From positions 1 through 21,151 of IMG/VR virus record IMGVR_UViG_3300042448_000420: 21,151 nt of DNA. One strand, 5' to 3'. The translations under genes and the position numbers were made by a program. The notes beneath the pieces were generated by a model, which did no database searches, had not been told where the DNA came from, and saw only the letters and a list, made by a program, of their open reading frames with translations. Source of the DNA: a virus. Below, one piece after another: positions 3,780-21,151 of the stretch. Within the stretch, counting starts at the first letter, position 1. The number at the start of each line of letters is the position of its first letter.

Positions 3780-6527
3780 TTATTTCTTTTTTGCAGATGA
3801 TTTTTGATCAAACTTGTTTTTGTTGACCTCAGCAATCTGTAATTGTTTTTCAGCTATATCTCTTTGAGCTTGAATTTTCTCTCTTTCAATAATATTCTTT
3901 TCTCTGTCAACAGTCATTCTGTTTGCATCTTTTTCTCTTTGAAGATTAGTTTGCTCCTGATATTGTTCAGTTGCTCTAATCTCTTTCATAGCATCAGCAT
4001 AATCAGACATTTGATTCTCATTAACATCCACAGCAGCACCATAACCAGCAGCTCTGATTTCAGCAACAGTAATATTATTTTGAAGTTGTCTTTCTTGTTT
4101 TTCAGCTTCAGCTTGAATCATTGCCTGTTGTTGTTTCTCAGTAGATGCAATTTGTTCTTGTTGCATTTGTTGTTGCTGTTGCATTTCTTGATCTTTCTGC
4201 TGTTTTTGTTTAGCTTCAGAATCTTTGAGAACTGTATTAAGTTGAGCAATTGAATCAGATTGAATAATTTGACCAAGATCATAGATACTTGCACCTGCTG
4301 TGTTATTAGACATTGCAAGTTGTTTTAATTGTTCAAGTACTGCTCTATGATTTGCTGTAGTACTACAGAAGATATTTAAGTCTCTAAGAAGTAATTCTGT
4401 TCCATTGATTTGGAAGTTTACTTTCTCATCAGCAGATGTAACATAAGTTAATCTTGCAGATGGATTAGTAGAGTGATAGTACTGAGCCAAGTCTGTACGC
4501 ATTTGGTGCACCCTAGGCATTAGATAATCACAGTGTTGGATAAAGAATACCTCTGTCTGTGCATAAGATGCTGAGGCAGCTTGTTCTACTCCTGTAGCAG
4601 TCATCTGAGATAACTGTTGTCCCATTCTTTGTGGATTCAATCCAATTACTTCAAATGCTTGTTGTTTAAAGTGATTGGCTAATTGAATCCTTGACATCAA
4701 TCTTTCTGTTTGGGAAAGATCAAGTTTTTGGAAATGTTGAAAGTTTAATGGGTTTTCAGTGTTAGTAATGGAAGTATCCAATGGTAACATCTGAAAGTTC
4801 TTCATTGCAACATATGCTTTAGCCAAGTTACCTTTACCCCAATCTTCTCCTAATGAGTGTCTTGGTAAAGAGTTTTGATCTAACATAATTACAGTACCAA
4901 GTTCATCTACTAGGATATCTGCAATCTGATTGTTTACAATGTTGTATCCAATCTGATATGGTTTCATTAAGTCAATAAGTGCTGTTGACTTAGTATTTCT
5001 ATCTGAGAATACTGCTCCTTCTACAGGAAGCTTACAACCATATAGAGTATTATCTCCTTTAAATTGAAATTTAAGAGGTCCTAGATTATTCTTTTCAATA
5101 CCTAAATAAATAGGAGAGAAACCACCAGGGTTATTCATACCCCAGAATGAAGGAATGTTAGGTCCAATTTTTACACCGCCCCATACTTCATTAATCCAGA
5201 TCCAATCCAGATGCTCTCCATATACCAATGTATCCTTTGTTTTATTTTTAAACAAACGATTATCATAGATAGGTTTATCAGTGACTTTATATTCTTCTGT
5301 AACTATCTCAGTAGTTACTTCTCCTAGATCTGTAATCTTAGTAAGGTGACCTATTTTCTTTTGTGACTTCCAATATACTGTAGATACTCTTAATAAGTAT
5401 GCAGTACCTTGATCATAGTAGTCTTCTCCTTCTGCTATGATTTGAGCAACTATATCTCCACCGTCTAATACAGTTCCAGACATAGCAGTAGTGTATTGTC
5501 TGTATGCTAATGATGGCATATTAGTATTCCATTCATGAGATTTAGTACCATCATAAAAGGATCCGTCATTTTGTAAACCTCCAATTGTATAACCAGCAGA
5601 TCTAATCGGATATACATTTTCTAATGCTTCAAGTTGATCTTGAGTCATAAGATATCCAAACTTATCAATAACATCAGATACGGTCATCATATCTGTTTTA
5701 CCTACCCAGTTACCTTGAGAAATATATCTTGCATCCGGAGACTTATGATAAAATGTTAATGCAGGATTCCAGAGTTCAATCTCATAATCATCCTCCATCA
5801 TCTTCATATGCCAGAACTCACGGTCTGTAATAAGCATATCACGGAATCCTCTTTCTTCAAGTTCATCCATTTTGAATCTCTCAACATCAACTCTATGTTG
5901 GTGAGCTGCCCATTGTTCTGTCATTGATTGATAGTCCTTCTTAAAGAACTTCTCAATTTCTGGTAATGATTTTAATTTGTCAGGAGAAGTTTCTTGTTGG
6001 AACTCAGGTGATTCAGGATCCATACCTTGAGCTACTAATGCTTGAGTGATTTTCATTTGAGCATCAGAAAGTAAAACTTCTTCCACCATTGCTCTTTTTT
6101 GTTCTAACATCTCATTGTATGAGAAATCATCAACAGCTCTATATGTAAGTTTAGTAGATCTTTTAGCAAATTCACCTACAAGAACATTAATAACATTTGG
6201 AATAATAGGATAGAATTTAAGTTCTAATGCTGATACATCTTCTTTAGTCAAAACCTCAACAATATCTCTATAGTCATTATCTTCTTCAACTATATAGTCT
6301 GTCTTATCAATAATACCTTTTGCAAGTTTATAGTTCTTCATTAACCTGCGGGCATTTCTTCTAAGTTGTTTTAGTCCTTGCCACTCTAACCAGTCAAGGT
6401 TCCATGCAGCCCATTGTTGATCTTTTTCTGATTTAGGAAGAAACTGCAATGGTTGTGTAATACTACCCAATTTATTTTGAGTAGTCTTAGCTCCATTTTT
6501 TGCTTGAATAGCATTTATTATTTGCAT
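3780..6527 (-). CDS. Portal protein with long Gln-rich coiled-coil C-terminus
   Basis: This 915-aa protein follows the large terminase by 7 nt, the standard place for the portal, the dodecameric ring through which DNA enters and leaves the capsid. Residues 1 to about 760 form a soluble mixed domain with an RRNARR basic stretch near the N-terminus and many aromatic residues, consistent with a podovirus-type (P22-like) portal of crAss-like size. From about residue 773 the composition changes sharply: a Gln/Glu/Lys-rich stretch with a five-Gln run is followed by predicted coiled coil to the lysine-rich end. Such a tail may form the barrel that projects into the capsid, as in P22-type portals. 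The portal call rests on context, size and composition; the barrel is inference. The ATG lies at 6525-6527. Confidence 0.8.
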   Translation of the reverse strand: MQIINAIQAKNGAKTTQNKLGSITQPLQFLPKSEKDQQWAAWNLDWLEWQGLKQLRRNARRLMKNYKLAKGIIDKTDYIVEEDNDYRDIVEVLTKEDVSALELKFYPIIPNVINVLVGEFAKRSTKLTYRAVDDFSYNEMLEQKRAMVEEVLLSDAQMKITQALVAQGMDPESPEFQQETSPDKLKSLPEIEKFFKKDYQSMTEQWAAHQHRVDVERFKMDELEERGFRDMLITDREFWHMKMMEDDYEIELWNPALTFYHKSPDARYISQGNWVGKTDMMTVSDVIDKFGYLMTQDQLEALENVYPIRSAGYTIGGLQNDGSFYDGTKSHEWNTNMPSLAYRQYTTAMSGTVLDGGDIVAQIIAEGEDYYDQGTAYLLRVSTVYWKSQKKIGHLTKITDLGEVTTEIVTEEYKVTDKPIYDNRLFKNKTKDTLVYGEHLDWIWINEVWGGVKIGPNIPSFWGMNNPGGFSPIYLGIEKNNLGPLKFQFKGDNTLYGCKLPVEGAVFSDRNTKSTALIDLMKPYQIGYNIVNNQIADILVDELGTVIMLDQNSLPRHSLGEDWGKGNLAKAYVAMKNFQMLPLDTSITNTENPLNFQHFQKLDLSQTERLMSRIQLANHFKQQAFEVIGLNPQRMGQQLSQMTATGVEQAASASYAQTEVFFIQHCDYLMPRVHQMRTDLAQYYHSTNPSARLTYVTSADEKVNFQINGTELLLRDLNIFCSTTANHRAVLEQLKQLAMSNNTAGASIYDLGQIIQSDSIAQLNTVLKDSEAKQKQQKDQEMQQQQQMQQEQIASTEKQQQAMIQAEAEKQERQLQNNITVAEIRAAGYGAAVDVNENQMSDYADAMKEIRATEQYQEQTNLQREKDANRMTVDREKNIIEREKIQAQRDIAEKQLQIAEVNKNKFDQKSSAKKK

Positions 6528-15303: not shown

Positions 15304-15528
15304 TTATTCTGCTCTTAATGCTGTTATGAATAAATTAATATCCGTAAATTCTTCACCATTGATTGCACATGATAAATCAAGCAATATAATACCTCTATCT
15401 GTTCCCATCAATACTTGTGAAGAAGACATGATAGAATATGGAACCATGGTTCCATCCATTTCAAACTCTTGGAATAAGTAGTCTATTCCATTAGTTGAAT
15501 ATCCATTTTTTATTGTAATTAGTAGCAT
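15304..15528 (-). CDS. Unknown 74-aa protein of the tail/decoration region
   Basis: A 74-residue soluble protein with alternating beta-like hydrophobic segments (LLITIKNG, GIILLDLSCAI). It overlaps the end of the 195-aa gene by 10 nt and ends 1 nt before the 168-aa gene. The product is acidic, with no TM segment. It may be a small accessory of the 195-aa surface protein; nothing in the sequence settles this. Confidence 0.65.
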   Translation of the reverse strand: MLLITIKNGYSTNGIDYLFQEFEMDGTMVPYSIMSSSQVLMGTDRGIILLDLSCAINGEEFTDINLFITALRAE

Positions 15529-16106
15529 AATACTTTATATCCTGTGGTGTAAGAAATACTGGTTGTACCTAAGTTATTCATTGCAAAAATGATATATAAA
15601 TTGTCTGTGACCGGATTATATGCATAACTAGTAGGAGGAGCCGGAGTACTATAATCTGTATTCGACAAAGCACTTGGTGTTTGGTTTGTAACTAATGTAT
15701 TGCCGTTCTGAAACAATGTTCTAAAATGTTTACCATTCCAGTTGTTTGAAGTGTAGTTTAATCCAATTGCAAATAATGTTGCTCCAGTTAAAGAATCTGT
15801 ATTATTCAGATACATCTGAGCTTGAACTACCCCACCTGTTTGTGATCTAGCACTCCATAAAATATCAATTAGATTATCAGTTGCAGTAAGGGTATTACTT
15901 GGTATATGCACAAAACTTGAAATGCCAACTCCTGCAATCCCTGTAATTGTTGTACCTTGTGTGCTAGAAATAGCTTTAAATTTAAAAGCATTACTTCCAC
16001 CACTATATTGAGGAATATTAAGATTATTTCCAACTAGAGTAGAAGCTCCACTTGTTCCAGTCGTGGTGAGTGTTAAGTTTTTAGTTATATTGATTTCTGT
16101 GCTCAT
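15519..16106 (-). CDS. Phage surface/tail adhesin, copy 2 of duplicated N-terminal module (195 aa)
   Basis: Residues 1-37 (MSTEINITKN, LTLTTTGTSGAS, then LNIPQYSGG) match the N-terminus of the 216-aa protein at 34 of 37 positions. This Thr/Gly-rich anchor with a (N)IPQY turn is typical of fibre-like proteins in Bacteroidetes phages as I recall. After it the two proteins share nothing obvious. Residues ~38-195 here are beta-rich, with many Asn, Thr, Gly and Tyr, suited to a receptor-binding or decoration domain. The start has an AAGGAG sequence 7 nt upstream, one of the few Shine-Dalgarno-like sites here, though it is also coding sequence of the upstream 51-aa gene. Confidence 0.75.
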   Translation of the reverse strand: MSTEINITKNLTLTTTGTSGASTLVGNNLNIPQYSGGSNAFKFKAISSTQGTTITGIAGVGISSFVHIPSNTLTATDNLIDILWSARSQTGGVVQAQMYLNNTDSLTGATLFAIGLNYTSNNWNGKHFRTLFQNGNTLVTNQTPSALSNTDYSTPAPPTSYAYNPVTDNLYIIFAMNNLGTTSISYTTGYKVLCY

Positions 16107-16107
16107 A

Positions 16108-16263
16108 TCATTCTCCTTTGAGTGCTTTCAGTTCATTGTACATAGCAAGTAACTCTGCTTCCTTTTGAGCAATAAGTTCTTCTTGAGTAGGTTCATCAAC
16201 TTCAATAAACTCTACACGGACCAAGCCGTTGTCATCATATATTTCATTTCTAATTTCTGCCAT
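16108..16263 (-). CDS. Small protein between the two adhesins, XkdW-like (51 aa)
   Basis: A 51-codon frame with ATG at 16261-16263 and TGA at 16108-16110, one base before the next ATG. The product starts MAEIRNEIYDDNGLVRVEFI and continues with an acidic helical half (TQEELIAQKEAELLAMYNEL). A short beta region then a helix is the build of small tail-accessory proteins such as XkdW; the similarity is only in general pattern. It lies 3 nt after the 216-aa gene, so the cassette reads adhesin, small protein, adhesin. It may assist folding or attachment of one of them. Confidence 0.65.
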   Translation of the reverse strand: MAEIRNEIYDDNGLVRVEFIEVDEPTQEELIAQKEAELLAMYNELKALKGE

Positions 16264-16266
16264 GAC

Positions 16267-16917
16267 TTATGCTACTATTAAACCTATTTTAGGGAAATTG
16301 CTATTTAATCTACCTGCTGAACTCGGAACAAATGTTGTTGGAGCTGAACCATAAGTAGCAGATGCTTGTATTGATGTAAATGTTAATAAAAAGGAATCAC
16401 AACCTATTATAAATTGACCAGAAGTAGAAGAAGCTGTAAAAAGTGGAGACCCATTTGAATATACCCCCAACCAATAAGTTGTACCCGCAGTAAATGTTTG
16501 ACTTGTTGTTGCGGTTTTTATTCCAGTTGTTCCGGTGTTTAAATCAGTACTTTCATAAAGTTTGGTTCCTGGCAATCCGGTTGCAATTGAATGTGAATAA
16601 ATCAAAATCCTTGAGCTTGTTGATAGTGCCGCACCGGAAACATTAATAATTATACTTGAAGTGGTAAATGTATTTTGTGGTGTAAATGGCATTAAGTACA
16701 TTTGATTTGCAGAAGGTGTTAATGTAACATTACTTGAACCCAGAGGAATGTTTGAATAAACCAATCCGCTACCTAAAGGTATGGATGCATAAACACCACT
16801 TGCACCTCCACCACTATACTGCGGAATGTTCAAAGTAGAACCTACCAAGGTAGCTGCTCCACTTGTGCCCGTTGTGGTAAGTGTTAAGTTCTTAGTTATG
16901 TTGATTTCTGTACTCAT
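16267..16917 (-). CDS. Phage surface/tail adhesin, copy 1 of duplicated N-terminal module (216 aa)
   Basis: It begins with the same ~37-residue module as the 195-aa protein, then a short Gly/Ala/Ser linker (GGGASG), then a different C-terminal domain of about 175 residues. That domain is beta-rich and Ser/Thr/Gly-rich, with segments such as QMYLMPFTPQNTF and FTAGTTYWLGVYSNG that resemble the beta-sandwich style of surface-binding domains. There is no signal peptide. The gene is followed by the 51-aa gene and preceded within 1 nt by the 117-aa gene. It is probably a tail, head-fibre or receptor-binding component; which one cannot be told. Confidence 0.75.
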   Translation of the reverse strand: MSTEINITKNLTLTTTGTSGAATLVGSTLNIPQYSGGGASGVYASIPLGSGLVYSNIPLGSSNVTLTPSANQMYLMPFTPQNTFTTSSIIINVSGAALSTSSRILIYSHSIATGLPGTKLYESTDLNTGTTGIKTATTSQTFTAGTTYWLGVYSNGSPLFTASSTSGQFIIGCDSFLLTFTSIQASATYGSAPTTFVPSSAGRLNSNFPKIGLIVA

Positions 16918-16918
16918 G

Positions 16919-17272
16919 TTATGATACCCAAATTATTAATAATTCAGTACCTGTAGCATCATAAGGAATTGCATTTAGAGTATTATTTAAAGTTCCCGCA
17001 TCAAAGTTAATTGTCTCTCCTGGTTTAAGTGGTATAAGATTTACTGTAGCATTTGCAGAACCTGTATTAGAAATTGATGCACTAAAGGTTCCTGCAGCTA
17101 CAGTTCCTGTAGAATCAGATCTTTTAATATTAGCTGTTCTTACTTTAGGATTAATAAGAATACTTGTACCAGTCATTGCGGCAAGTATGTTTGTAATACC
17201 TTGTAATACTTTTAACTGGAATGGAAAATTATTTCCTTTATTTCCATAGTCTTTTAAATTTCCTATTGACAT
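16919..17272 (-). CDS. Unknown 117-aa beta-rich phage structural protein
   Basis: A 117-residue soluble protein. The N-terminus (MSIGNLKDYGNKGNNFPFQL) and a helix LQGITNILAAM lead into a beta-rich C-terminal domain with many Thr, Asn and Gly. Such short proteins are frequent in the tail/adhesin clusters of Bacteroidetes phages in my experience of sequences, but I cannot name a family. It sits 2 nt after the 186-aa gene and 1 nt before the 216-aa gene. Confidence 0.7.
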   Translation of the reverse strand: MSIGNLKDYGNKGNNFPFQLKVLQGITNILAAMTGTSILINPKVRTANIKRSDSTGTVAAGTFSASISNTGSANATVNLIPLKPGETINFDAGTLNNTLNAIPYDATGTELLIIWVS

Positions 17273-17274
17273 GA

Positions 17275-17835
17275 TTAATATGTTTTGTTTAATATAAATA
17301 TATCCGAATATATAGAGTTACCAGCATTAGCACTACCCCATTGCACTGTAACATCTAAAGTATTATTAATTGTAGTATTGAAGGTTGTACTGTTTACTGT
17401 ATTGAATGCAAAACCTTGTACTGTAGCATTAGAAGTCTTTGTGTAATGAAATGCTCCTAGAGCTACTATGGATGCTACACCGGCAGTCCCAAGTTGTCTA
17501 ATAGTAAAGTCTATGTTTAAACTAAACACATCATTTGTAATATTAGTAATTGGTTGAACACCACTGTCTAATAAAATAACACTTCCAGATTTTACTTTAA
17601 CTCTAATAGTTTGATTATTAACAGCATTTAAAATTCCTCCAAAAATTGCTCTAAAACTATCCCCTATTTTAAAAGCATTAGCCGGAACAGATAATGATCC
17701 TACACCACCGTTAATAAGAGACCTCTCAACAGTTGTATTAGTAATAGGTATGCTATTAGCCGTCTGAGCAAATAATCCACGGGTATACCCTAAAGGATTA
17801 GTATAATACGAATTTAATTCTATCTCAGTTGGCAT
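17275..17835 (-). CDS. Beta-rich fibre/decoration-like protein (186 aa)
   Basis: A 186-residue protein with an N-terminal PTEIELNSYY segment and then a beta-rich body full of Thr, Asn, Val and Ile strands (IRVKVKSGSVILLDSG, then LDVTVQWGS near the end), suggesting a jelly-roll or similar sandwich. It has no TM segment or signal peptide. It is the first gene after the glycosyltransferase terminator and has a promoter-like box 16 nt upstream, so it may open the tail-adhesin and lysis transcription unit. A tail-tip or capsid-decoration role is inferred from context. Confidence 0.72.
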   Translation of the reverse strand: MPTEIELNSYYTNPLGYTRGLFAQTANSIPITNTTVERSLINGGVGSLSVPANAFKIGDSFRAIFGGILNAVNNQTIRVKVKSGSVILLDSGVQPITNITNDVFSLNIDFTIRQLGTAGVASIVALGAFHYTKTSNATVQGFAFNTVNSTTFNTTINNTLDVTVQWGSANAGNSIYSDIFILNKTY

Positions 17836-19181: not shown

Positions 19182-20039
19182 TTATGGTACAATTGTAAGT
19201 ACACCAGCATTTGACCAAACAGATTTTGAAGGTAATCCGGCAGATGATGTTGGAATGTTTATAATTGAAAGATTGTTCACAAATGTTGTACATACTCTAT
19301 CTGTAATAATACATGATCCTACTACAAATGAATCATTACATGTTGCACGATTCATTTGTCCTCCAAGAATACCTGTTCTAGCAGCTGTATTACATGAAAT
19401 GTTACAAAAACCACCGCCTACAATACTCCAAGAAGATGAAGTAGCATTTCGTTCACCACCTATAATACTACTACATGAACCAGCTACATTATTTAGTAAA
19501 CCACCTCCTGTAAAACCATATTGGCCTGTATTTGATGTAACATTTTGTCCTCCTGCAACAATAGCCGACCAGTTTCCAAACATTGAATTCTGAAAACCTC
19601 CCCCAATGAAAGAATTAAGACCCCCTTGGTAATTTGATACACCACCTGAAATTACAGAACATTGTGACTCATTGCAATTAGATTGACCACCTGAAATAAC
19701 ATTAAATGAATTTGTTGAACAGTGTCCAAAACCACCAGTTATAACACTATGGCAAGTAAATGAAGCCATAGTATTTTGAAAACCAAATACTATGCCACAT
19801 GCTCCAGCAGCAGTATTACCAAGACCAGTTCTTACTGTTGAACCAGCTCCAGTACCTACAGCTACAATAGCTGGAGGTGCAACTGAGTTAATAAAGTTTT
19901 GAGCAGTAATTGAACCACTACGGTAACCATCATCCCTTCTTGGGTCTTTAAGACCAAGTGGAATTAATGTTTGTGTTGGATCAACAGTAGTTACTTGTTG
20001 TCCATTTTTAATCCATGATATAAAATTTAGAACGTCCAT
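19182..20039 (-). CDS. Cysteine-rich left-handed beta-roll repeat protein, adhesin-like (285 aa)
   Basis: The ATG at 20037-20039 (MDVLNFISW) gives 285 aa; an upstream in-frame TTG at 20078 lies in a promoter-like box. Residues 1-55 form a distinct anchor (PLGLKDPRRDDGYRSG). From about 97 to 245 there are roughly ten repeats of about 15-16 residues, each with a hydrophobic pair, GG or GGG, then Asn/Gln/Ser (SVITGG, VISGG, FIGGG, IVAGG, IIGG, IVGGG, ILGG). This is the left-handed beta-roll pattern seen in YadA-type head domains and phage fibres. Eleven cysteines lie at related places in the repeats, unusual for such a fold. The C-terminus ends in GVLTIVP. It is probably a trimeric surface protein; the trimer state is inferred. 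Confidence 0.75.
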   Translation of the reverse strand: MDVLNFISWIKNGQQVTTVDPTQTLIPLGLKDPRRDDGYRSGSITAQNFINSVAPPAIVAVGTGAGSTVRTGLGNTAAGACGIVFGFQNTMASFTCHSVITGGFGHCSTNSFNVISGGQSNCNESQCSVISGGVSNYQGGLNSFIGGGFQNSMFGNWSAIVAGGQNVTSNTGQYGFTGGGLLNNVAGSCSSIIGGERNATSSSWSIVGGGFCNISCNTAARTGILGGQMNRATCNDSFVVGSCIITDRVCTTFVNNLSIINIPTSSAGLPSKSVWSNAGVLTIVP

Positions 20040-20581: not shown

Positions 20582-21151
20582 TTAAATTGCTAATAAATGT
20601 ATAGAGGCATATGTTCCAGCATCTGCTGCGCCTTTTTGTAAATTTCTGTTAACTCCTGTAGACTGGTATGCTGTGAAATCTATATAATCTGTTGTTCCGT
20701 TAAAATAGATAAGTTTAGAACCTGTTAATGATTGTCCGGTACCATTATTTATTGTAGGTTGCTGTATAATTAATACAGTGGATGCATTTTTTCTAATTTG
20801 TACATTATACTGTGCTGTAGTTACTGTAGCTGGATCAAACCATACTGTGAAGTCTACATGATAATATCCAGCAATAGTTGGTGTAAATCTTTTAGTAGTT
20901 GGATCATACCAGTTATTGGTATCATCTATATCTACAAAATTAATTTGTGTATCTGACAATGATGGTATAGATTGGTCTGCGGCTAATCCTATATTACATA
21001 CATATGTATTAGCTGTAGGTATTGTAGCTGTTATAGCACCATTAACTTTTAAGTTACTTTCAAAATATCCTCCACCATTTACATTAAGCTTATAACCAGT
21101 ATCTGTAGTTGTTCCTATAAGAACATTGCCTGCAATATAATTTTTTGCAGT
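20582..21151 (-). CDS. Partial fibre-like protein with C-terminal C1q/TNF-like domain
   Basis: The frame is open from the stop at 20582 to the window edge, giving 189 visible residues. A TTG at 20957-20959 is only an internal Leu codon, since the same frame continues 64 codons upstream without a stop, in convincing protein sequence. The visible part starts with NYIAGNVLIGTTTDTGYKL followed by NVNGGG, a motif common in large Bacteroidetes and phage fibre proteins before a stalk. The last ~110 residues have the pattern of a C1q/TNF-like jelly roll (RFTPTIAGYYHVDFTVWF, later DYIDFTAYQ, ending SIHLLAI). This is probably the receptor-binding or trimerising tip of a larger fibre whose N-terminus lies beyond the window. 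Confidence 0.8.
   Translation of the reverse strand, partial: TAKNYIAGNVLIGTTTDTGYKLNVNGGGYFESNLKVNGAITATIPTANTYVCNIGLAADQSIPSLSDTQINFVDIDDTNNWYDPTTKRFTPTIAGYYHVDFTVWFDPATVTTAQYNVQIRKNASTVLIIQQPTINNGTGQSLTGSKLIYFNGTTDYIDFTAYQSTGVNRNLQKGAADAGTYASIHLLAI

Follow-up and report, generated by a model that had tools for sequence, protein, structure and literature searches.

Two neighbouring mini-fibre genes, P1 and P2, share a 37-residue start and carry tips of two unrelated all-β families, and each tip type has its own small downstream gene, coding for 51 residues behind P2-type tips and for 74 residues behind P1-type tips. This tip-partner rule is a more interesting fact than the repeat that the two genes have in common, and it goes beyond what a first reading of the sequence could see. 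We favour, with some confidence, the view that P1 and P2 each encode a minimal, probably trimeric fibre of a Crassvirales-like virion, composed of an exchangeable start, shaft and tip, that their tips belong to tip-partner cassettes, and that the second gene came about via stalk duplication and tip replacement. The preliminary description of this DNA had recognised the common start and explained it as a modular anchor with swappable tips; its observation is confirmed and its interpretation partly supported.

The window and its two mini-fibre genes

The window, i.e. the whole stretch of DNA analysed, is a virus record of 21151 bases, the minus strand of which carries a Crassvirales-like gene set. 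PHROG profiles match its portal (phrog_6547, 2.5e-101), large terminase (TerL; phrog_6681, 1.1e-61) and major head protein (phrog_11589, 1.1e-31), and the phage thus combines a crAss-like portal, terminase and capsid. A tblastn search with the portal matched 134 records, and crAss-like ones form the majority of the 30 matches listed. The best named-phage match of the portal gene (3780-6527), among the matches listed, is Leptolyngbya phage Lbo-JY46 (E 2e-108, 31.5%), the host of which is cyanobacterial according to its record. The fibre-type genes are located upstream of the endolysin and of several small genes.

The genes of the tip locus lie on the minus strand. P2 (16267..16917) is an open reading frame of 216 residues made of an MSTEINI start peptide, a shaft unit and a P2-type β-sandwich tip; its copy of the repeat (codons 1-37, 16807..16917) reads as the start peptide MSTEINITK followed by the shaft unit NLTLTTTGTSGAATLVGSTLNIPQYSGG. 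The 51-residue partner of the P2-type tip (16108..16263) is encoded between P2 and P1, as the preliminary description had it. P1 (15519..16106) is an open reading frame of 195 residues that joins the same 37-residue start (15996..16106) to a P1-type, probably TNF/C1q-like tip, and its end is overlapped by 10 nt by the gene of the 74-residue partner (15304..15528), relatives of which are found behind P1-type tips. On the other side of P2, a virion-type gene (16919..17272) begins with ~26 residues, MSIGNLKDYGNKGNNFPFQLKVLQGI, that are common to proteins with other C-termini: this start heads 21 proteins of 84-439 residues in 19 loci, with differing C-termini, and genes headed by it form tandem pairs in L052, L058, and L063. 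The next gene (17275..17835) has a C-terminal domain that L043 and L024 carry behind another N-terminus. Further along, positions 19182-20039 encode a fibre-type protein with YadA head-like repeats, whose start (MDVLNFISWIK) is common to other fibre genes of relatives. A cut gene at 20582-21151 shows a weak C1q match (E 0.0018, under the cut-off) and contains the stretch NVLIGTTTDTGYKLNVNG, presumably of a kind found in other fibres.

Over their first 37 residues, P1 and P2 are identical at 34 positions without any indel, exactly as first noticed and at coordinates correct within a few bases. The similarity extends to the DNA, with 89 of 111 bases identical over codons 1-37, and the codons differ at 16 of the 34 matching residues. 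Purifying selection acts on this common block (NG86 dN 0.065, dS 1.35). The similarity begins ~5 nt 5' of the start codon and stops at codon 37-38; as a direct repeat it spans 119 nt at 79% (15993-16111 vs. 16804-16922), which makes it the largest repeat of the region searched, and its two copies flank the P2 tip and the 51-residue gene. The longest exact run within it is 12 nt, and significant similarity is gone beyond residue 37. The label "adhesin", given earlier to both proteins, is suggested by the predicted fold and not by the sequence.

Start, shaft and tip as separate parts

The 37 residues are a composite of a short start peptide, MSTxINI, and a shaft unit that recurs within many long fibres. 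A first scan with N-terminal pieces returned 11 relatives, in which the core LTLTTTGTSGAATLVGSTLNIPQY is mostly found inside long fibres, ahead of YadA-head-like, β-helix or other tips. Wider scans afterwards placed the core in 120 open segments from 114 of 277 loci, with 180 copies in total and up to 7 per protein. In L249, it constitutes one segment of a longer fibre repeat, consecutive copies being 105-262 residues apart. The core lies within 25 residues of the first methionine in three of the 120 segments, i.e. the two window genes and a gene of L008. A dedicated N-terminal anchor is ruled out, because the other 117 segments do not carry the core near the first methionine; of the modular anchor with swappable tips, the tips therefore stand, while the anchor becomes an internal shaft unit. 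Likewise, the search for genes starting with the module, as proposed earlier, yields many C-termini, but rarely at a gene start. The 92 distinct complete tails of module-bearing proteins, taken from the 97 of 120 rows having a complete C-terminus of at least 60 residues, fall into 49 C-terminal clusters by single linkage (blastp E 1e-4), a procedure that overcounts families. The repeat is thus found with many other tips.

The start peptide is an element separate from the shaft unit. MSTxINI precedes a different shaft (MSTEINIKKRIDIQEEGV) in L011 and L013, with a variant in L012, a different hairpin (MSTVINIQGQPKLVSGINIKTINGNSLLGSGNLTI) in L293, and a variant of the window hairpin in L356. Genes of the terminase relatives begin with M[SAGP]T.I more often than expected (22 distinct starts vs. 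2.7), two of the 22 being major capsid proteins. The module of L008 displays a 2-residue insertion relative to that of P1 and P2. Structurally, AF2 predicts two short strands over the module (23-25 and 28-30, pLDDT ~55-66), which makes "hairpin" a weak designation for the shaft unit; a triple β-spiral is another candidate fold. A profile search of PDB sequences with the 37-residue module gave a chance antibody match only, and searches of Pfam and PHROGs gave nothing useful. The module is also observed in 18 bacterial contigs (loci L261-L278), mostly from Bacteroidota (Ferruginibacter, Fibrisoma, Flavobacterium, Mucilaginibacter). In the isolated-phage collection, neither the module nor P2, nor the 51- or 74-residue protein, was found (two chance matches at E 8).

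The P1 and P2 tips are two unrelated all-β families: the profile comparison between them (hhalign) gives a probability of 1.2%, the family alignments holding 38 rows for P1-type and 12 members for P2-type tips. The claim that the C-termini diverge completely after residue 37 thus stands, and the two do not share one fold in the sense of one family: although both are β-sandwich domains, their nearest solved structures differ. For P2 (AF2 model, pLDDT 75.5), the top VIA-align neighbour is a cyanophage A4 capsid chain, 9jwb_Z (Z 15.6, rmsd 2.8, 149 residues aligned), followed by the tail tip of Bxb1 (Z 13.5, rmsd 3.1, 156 aligned), the baseplate/central fibre of Douge (Z 11.6, rmsd 3.5, 157 aligned), the baseplate of phi812 (Z 10.3, rmsd 3.2, 138 aligned), and CBM6 domains (Z 5.7-6.4). 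Since the 9jwb entry is titled capsid asymmetric unit, P2-type tips could decorate heads as well as tails. The family resembles the choice-of-anchor R/CBM6-like β-sandwich, with CBM6 domains as structural neighbours and matches of NCBIfam choice_anch_R (NF041539) to 8 of the 12 members; the window copy differs in scoring 21.6 bits, under the curated cut-off of 30.

P1 (AF2 model, pLDDT 81.7) is closest to the C-terminal domain of Pgp3 (Z 9.1, rmsd 2.9, 113 aligned) and to the TNF-like lectins PLTL (Z 8.2, rmsd 2.6, 111 aligned) and Bc2L-C (Z 8.2, rmsd 2.7, 110 aligned). Its fold class is probably that of TNF/C1q-like trimeric lectins (Bc2L-C N-domain, PLTL, C1QL3; Z 7.7-8.2 over 99-112 residues, rmsd 2.4-2.8), at a sequence identity of 4-9% and with Z-scores near the level that a common arrangement gives by itself, and which may mean only that. 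Both tip types are found on unrelated starts, with 93 domain matches in 84 loci for P1-type tips. Profile A4 of the P1-type tip collects 123 relatives, whereas the full-length P1 protein had no match as a viral-contig query, and the P1-type tip is present in Flavobacterium phages of the isolated-phage collection.

Tip-partner cassettes

Across 439 loci, the 51-residue gene follows 112 of 124 evaluable distinct P2-type tip genes, and the 74-residue gene follows 59 of 78 evaluable distinct P1-type ones, identical tips and edge cases (one P1, three P2) having been left out. Cross pairs are absent: the 51-residue gene follows none of the 78 P1-type tips and the 74-residue gene none of the 124 P2-type tips. 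The partner is not directly behind the tip in 19 of the 78 P1-type and 12 of the 124 P2-type cases. Looking upstream, a P2-type tip directly precedes 157 of 161 relatives of the 51-residue gene (two are at an edge, two have something else), and a P1-type tip precedes all 79 relatives found of the 74-residue gene, a count that is biased because the linkage came mainly from loci seeded on the P1 tip. In a scan for the 51-residue gene, the P2-type tip was directly upstream in 81 of 84 cases, the other three being without an upstream frame. In tip-seeded loci, which were not chosen for the 51-residue gene, this gene is found behind 68 of 81 evaluable P2-type tips. The 13 misses comprise three tandem tips ahead of another tip, nine tips of one divergent clade, and L411, in which the 51-residue gene is displaced. 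The one clear exception to the linkage is located in L339 (~2997), where a relative of the 51-residue gene is found behind a 92-residue segment with another ending. The 51-residue gene is hence the partner of the P2 tip and not a chance neighbour, as is the 74-residue gene for the P1 tip.

The two partners evolve differently. The 51-residue protein keeps a median pairwise identity of 0.76 while P2 tips fall to 0.35; the 74-residue protein diverges alongside the P1 tip (0.37 and 0.34, Mantel r 0.66). The 51-codon gene shows a median dN of 0.116 and a dS of 1.2 (48 usable of 60 pairs drawn), therefore the protein is selected and its DNA is not simply young. The P2-51 cassette occurs in different phage lineages, alongside packaging enzymes of both the crAss-like and the Terminase_3 type: among 23 larger contigs carrying the pair, 14 possess a Terminase_3 TerL above the cut-off and one a crAss-like TerL at 63%, and two further ones have weak terminase matches (E ~3e-4).

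Profile searches place neither partner in a known family. The 51-residue protein matched no Pfam family, and representatives of both (four members of the 51-residue and six of the 74-residue protein) matched no tail-fibre-assembly family of Pfam-A; matches to PHROGs were weak (best E 0.036), and those to PDB sequences were at chance level. Titles and opening lines of abstracts disclosed no published tip partner of 51 or 74 residues, and one may exist in print. We propose that they represent two small protein families, so far undescribed, whose role can be tested. By analogy, they behave like cognate fibre chaperones, and are probably tip-specific assembly factors, acting in folding or assembly or possibly as caps. 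The rule that emerges is that tip and mini-partner travel together, while the stalk start remains with the phage lineage. Of practical use, the 51-residue gene shows where a P2-type tip gene ends and provides an annotation handle for receptor-binding proteins in uncultured Bacteroidota phages.

Origin of the second gene and known systems

A recent intermediate is found in the relative L411. Its genes follow each other as a P2-type tip gene, a second gene with a P1-type tip, the 74-residue gene, a 35-base copy (97%) of the 3' end of the P2 tip, and the 51-residue gene. The first ~143 bases of the second gene are 94% identical to those of the first gene (135/147 in a second measure). Such an arrangement would be expected if stalk and tip had been duplicated in tandem and a P1-74 cassette had then replaced the second tip; the locus is known from one metagenomic contig, in which an assembly error is possible. 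Five loci carry both tip types (L314, L411, L378, L291, and the window). In L314, L411, L378, and the window, the P1- and P2-type neighbours have a matching N-terminus, a different one per locus; in L291, the two tips are ~3 kb apart and their N-termini differ. The observed N-terminus pairing score over the five loci is reached by one of 120 permutations, the observed one. More broadly, 19 of 4061 neighbour pairs examined have a common start, several of them being low-complexity sequence or paralogues over the whole gene; a P1- or P2-type tip takes part in 10, of which four join different tips. Duplication followed by tip replacement, as suggested in the preliminary description, gains from the many other stalks that carry each tip family, from the many tips that follow the module, and from the fresh state of L411 with the same tip types.

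The window event itself is old, because exact identity extends over at most 12 nt and the module core DNA of P1 and P2 (65/84) is no closer than that of P2 and L008 (66/84). The terminase of L008 is 69% identical to that of the window, and its locus harbors P2 and a 52-residue gene without P1. In L052, the orthologous flanking genes enclose no tip gene at all, and no module was found in the 122 kb of L016, a 91% relative. A ~740-residue gene beginning with MNNLCQLALANGGSVNYL is observed at the tip locus of terminase relatives (L051 1683-3899, L042 876-3068, L016 196-2421) and also behind the P2-51 cassette in L294, L344, L351, and L354; its C-terminus has what we take to be the look of an FkbM-type methyltransferase.

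Other histories of the gene pair have been weighed against stalk duplication and tip replacement. A plain tandem duplication, in which both C-termini come from one ancestor and have diverged beyond recognition while selection kept the start, would agree with two all-β tips and with the purifying selection on the shared block (dN 0.065 vs. dS 1.35). It is nevertheless very improbable given the 1.2% profile probability between tip families that each are large on other stalks, the separate partner genes with cross pairs at 0/78 and 0/124, and the L411 stalks, ~92-94% identical in DNA under unrelated tips. The window event could alternatively consist of two independent acquisitions of a common module, without duplication in this phage, as the abundance of the core (120 segments) and the equal distances P1/P2 (65/84) and P2/L008 (66/84) would allow. 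We regard this as improbable, though less so than a plain duplication: few proteins open with MSTxINI joined to this hairpin (twice in the window and once in L008 among the 120, with L356 later), 34 of 37 residues agree between P1 and P2 with no gap, compared with a 2-residue insertion in L008, and other P2/P1 neighbours likewise have their own, different common N-termini. Least probable of all, by a small step, is that the repeat acts as a recombination switch by which tips are exchanged or deleted within the population, as the preliminary description had envisaged. The two 119-nt direct repeats do flank the P2 tip and the 51-residue gene, and L052 lacks the tip genes between orthologous neighbours; against this, the two copies are nowhere identical over more than 12 nt, synonymous divergence approaches saturation (dS 1.35), and no near-identical deleted or exchanged contig was found, the best viral-contig match being 60% for P2 and none for P1. 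Ongoing recombination at the window repeat is therefore unsupported.

As for the partner proteins, they could be structural subunits of the mature tip, such as a cap or clamp in the virion, instead of assembly chaperones. Their strict tip specificity would suit such a role, as would the divergence of the 74-residue protein with its tip (Mantel r 0.66), whereas the 51-residue protein, at 76% median identity against 35% for P2 tips, is a better fit to a general helper than to an exposed specificity part. This alternative is rather unlikely, yet carries more weight than any of the three other histories above.

Under stalk duplication and tip replacement, P1 and P2 would each consist of the MSTxINI start peptide of this lineage, which probably serves for attachment, a single shaft unit, probably a β-hairpin, that derives from a widespread fibre repeat, and a tip of the receptor-binding type. 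The tips sit in two-gene cassettes, P2-type with the 51-residue gene and P1-type with the 74-residue gene. A tip gene already present would have undergone tandem duplication of the part that encodes its stalk, and another tip, arriving with its own partner gene, would have taken the place of the one behind the new copy; a single attachment site could thereby display two tips. The analysis demonstrates the parts, the way they recombine independently of each other, the linkage of tip and partner, and a recent intermediate in L411; we infer that both proteins are displayed on the virion and that their tips bind host glycans. With their common start, they would either share a single docking site or compete for it while presenting two tips, by analogy with phage crAss001. 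A second specificity would in this way be gained without losing the first. As each kind of tip moves between phages with its own tiny partner gene, the virus seems built to collect tips. More tentatively, and with less than even probability, Bacteroidota phages may draw on a common pool of tip cassettes, each a variable tip with a dedicated mini-protein of 50-75 residues from an undescribed family, any tip being mountable on the lineage stalk by duplication and tip replacement; the near-invariant 51-residue protein would then serve an entire, highly diverse tip family as its universal assembly factor, and would be unusually small for a chaperone of fibres.

In the published description of crAss001, the head fibres gp21 and gp29 are docked in capsid hexons by their residues 1-38 and 1-58, respectively, the tail fibre gp22 is docked in the tail hub by its residues 1-26, and two binding specificities are suggested by its authors for the two head fibres (PMC10172136). 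Like P1 and P2, these proteins possess short N-terminal segments followed by different distal domains; in contrast, the two crAss001 head fibres differ in their N-termini, while in the window one N-terminus is common to two tips (PMC10172136). A blastp comparison of 14 window proteins with crAss001 gp20-gp29 revealed no relation (best E for P1/P2 0.17), and homology of P1 and P2 to these fibres finds no support at the sequence level.

The partner genes bring to mind Tfa-type modules. Alteromonas phages A5 and V22 are reported to share a module of fibre and cognate Tfa-type chaperone between distant phage families (PMC10579305), and in cyanophage Pam3 the fibre gp24, with a TNF-like domain, has a cognate helper, gp25, of 162 residues composed of a β-sandwich and a trimerising helical domain (PMC9608196). 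As in these modules, fibre and cognate helper travel here as a pair between phage families (PMC10579305, PMC9608196), and both partner genes lie directly downstream of their cognate fibre gene, although their proteins lack a sequence match to any Pfam tail-fibre-assembly family. The helpers described are larger than the 51- and 74-residue partners, as exemplified by Pam3 gp25 (PMC9608196), and in the window cassettes the linkage tracks the tip domain only, the stalk being free to change.

Finally, modular receptor-binding proteins with a constant N-terminal anchor and variable tips have been documented in Klebsiella phages (PMC12692247) and in E. coli tailspikes (PMC10408124). Their constant start, variable distal part and horizontal exchange have counterparts here. 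The window departs from them in that most of its 37-residue module is a shaft unit from the interior of long fibres, and in that the start is common to two adjacent genes of one genome.
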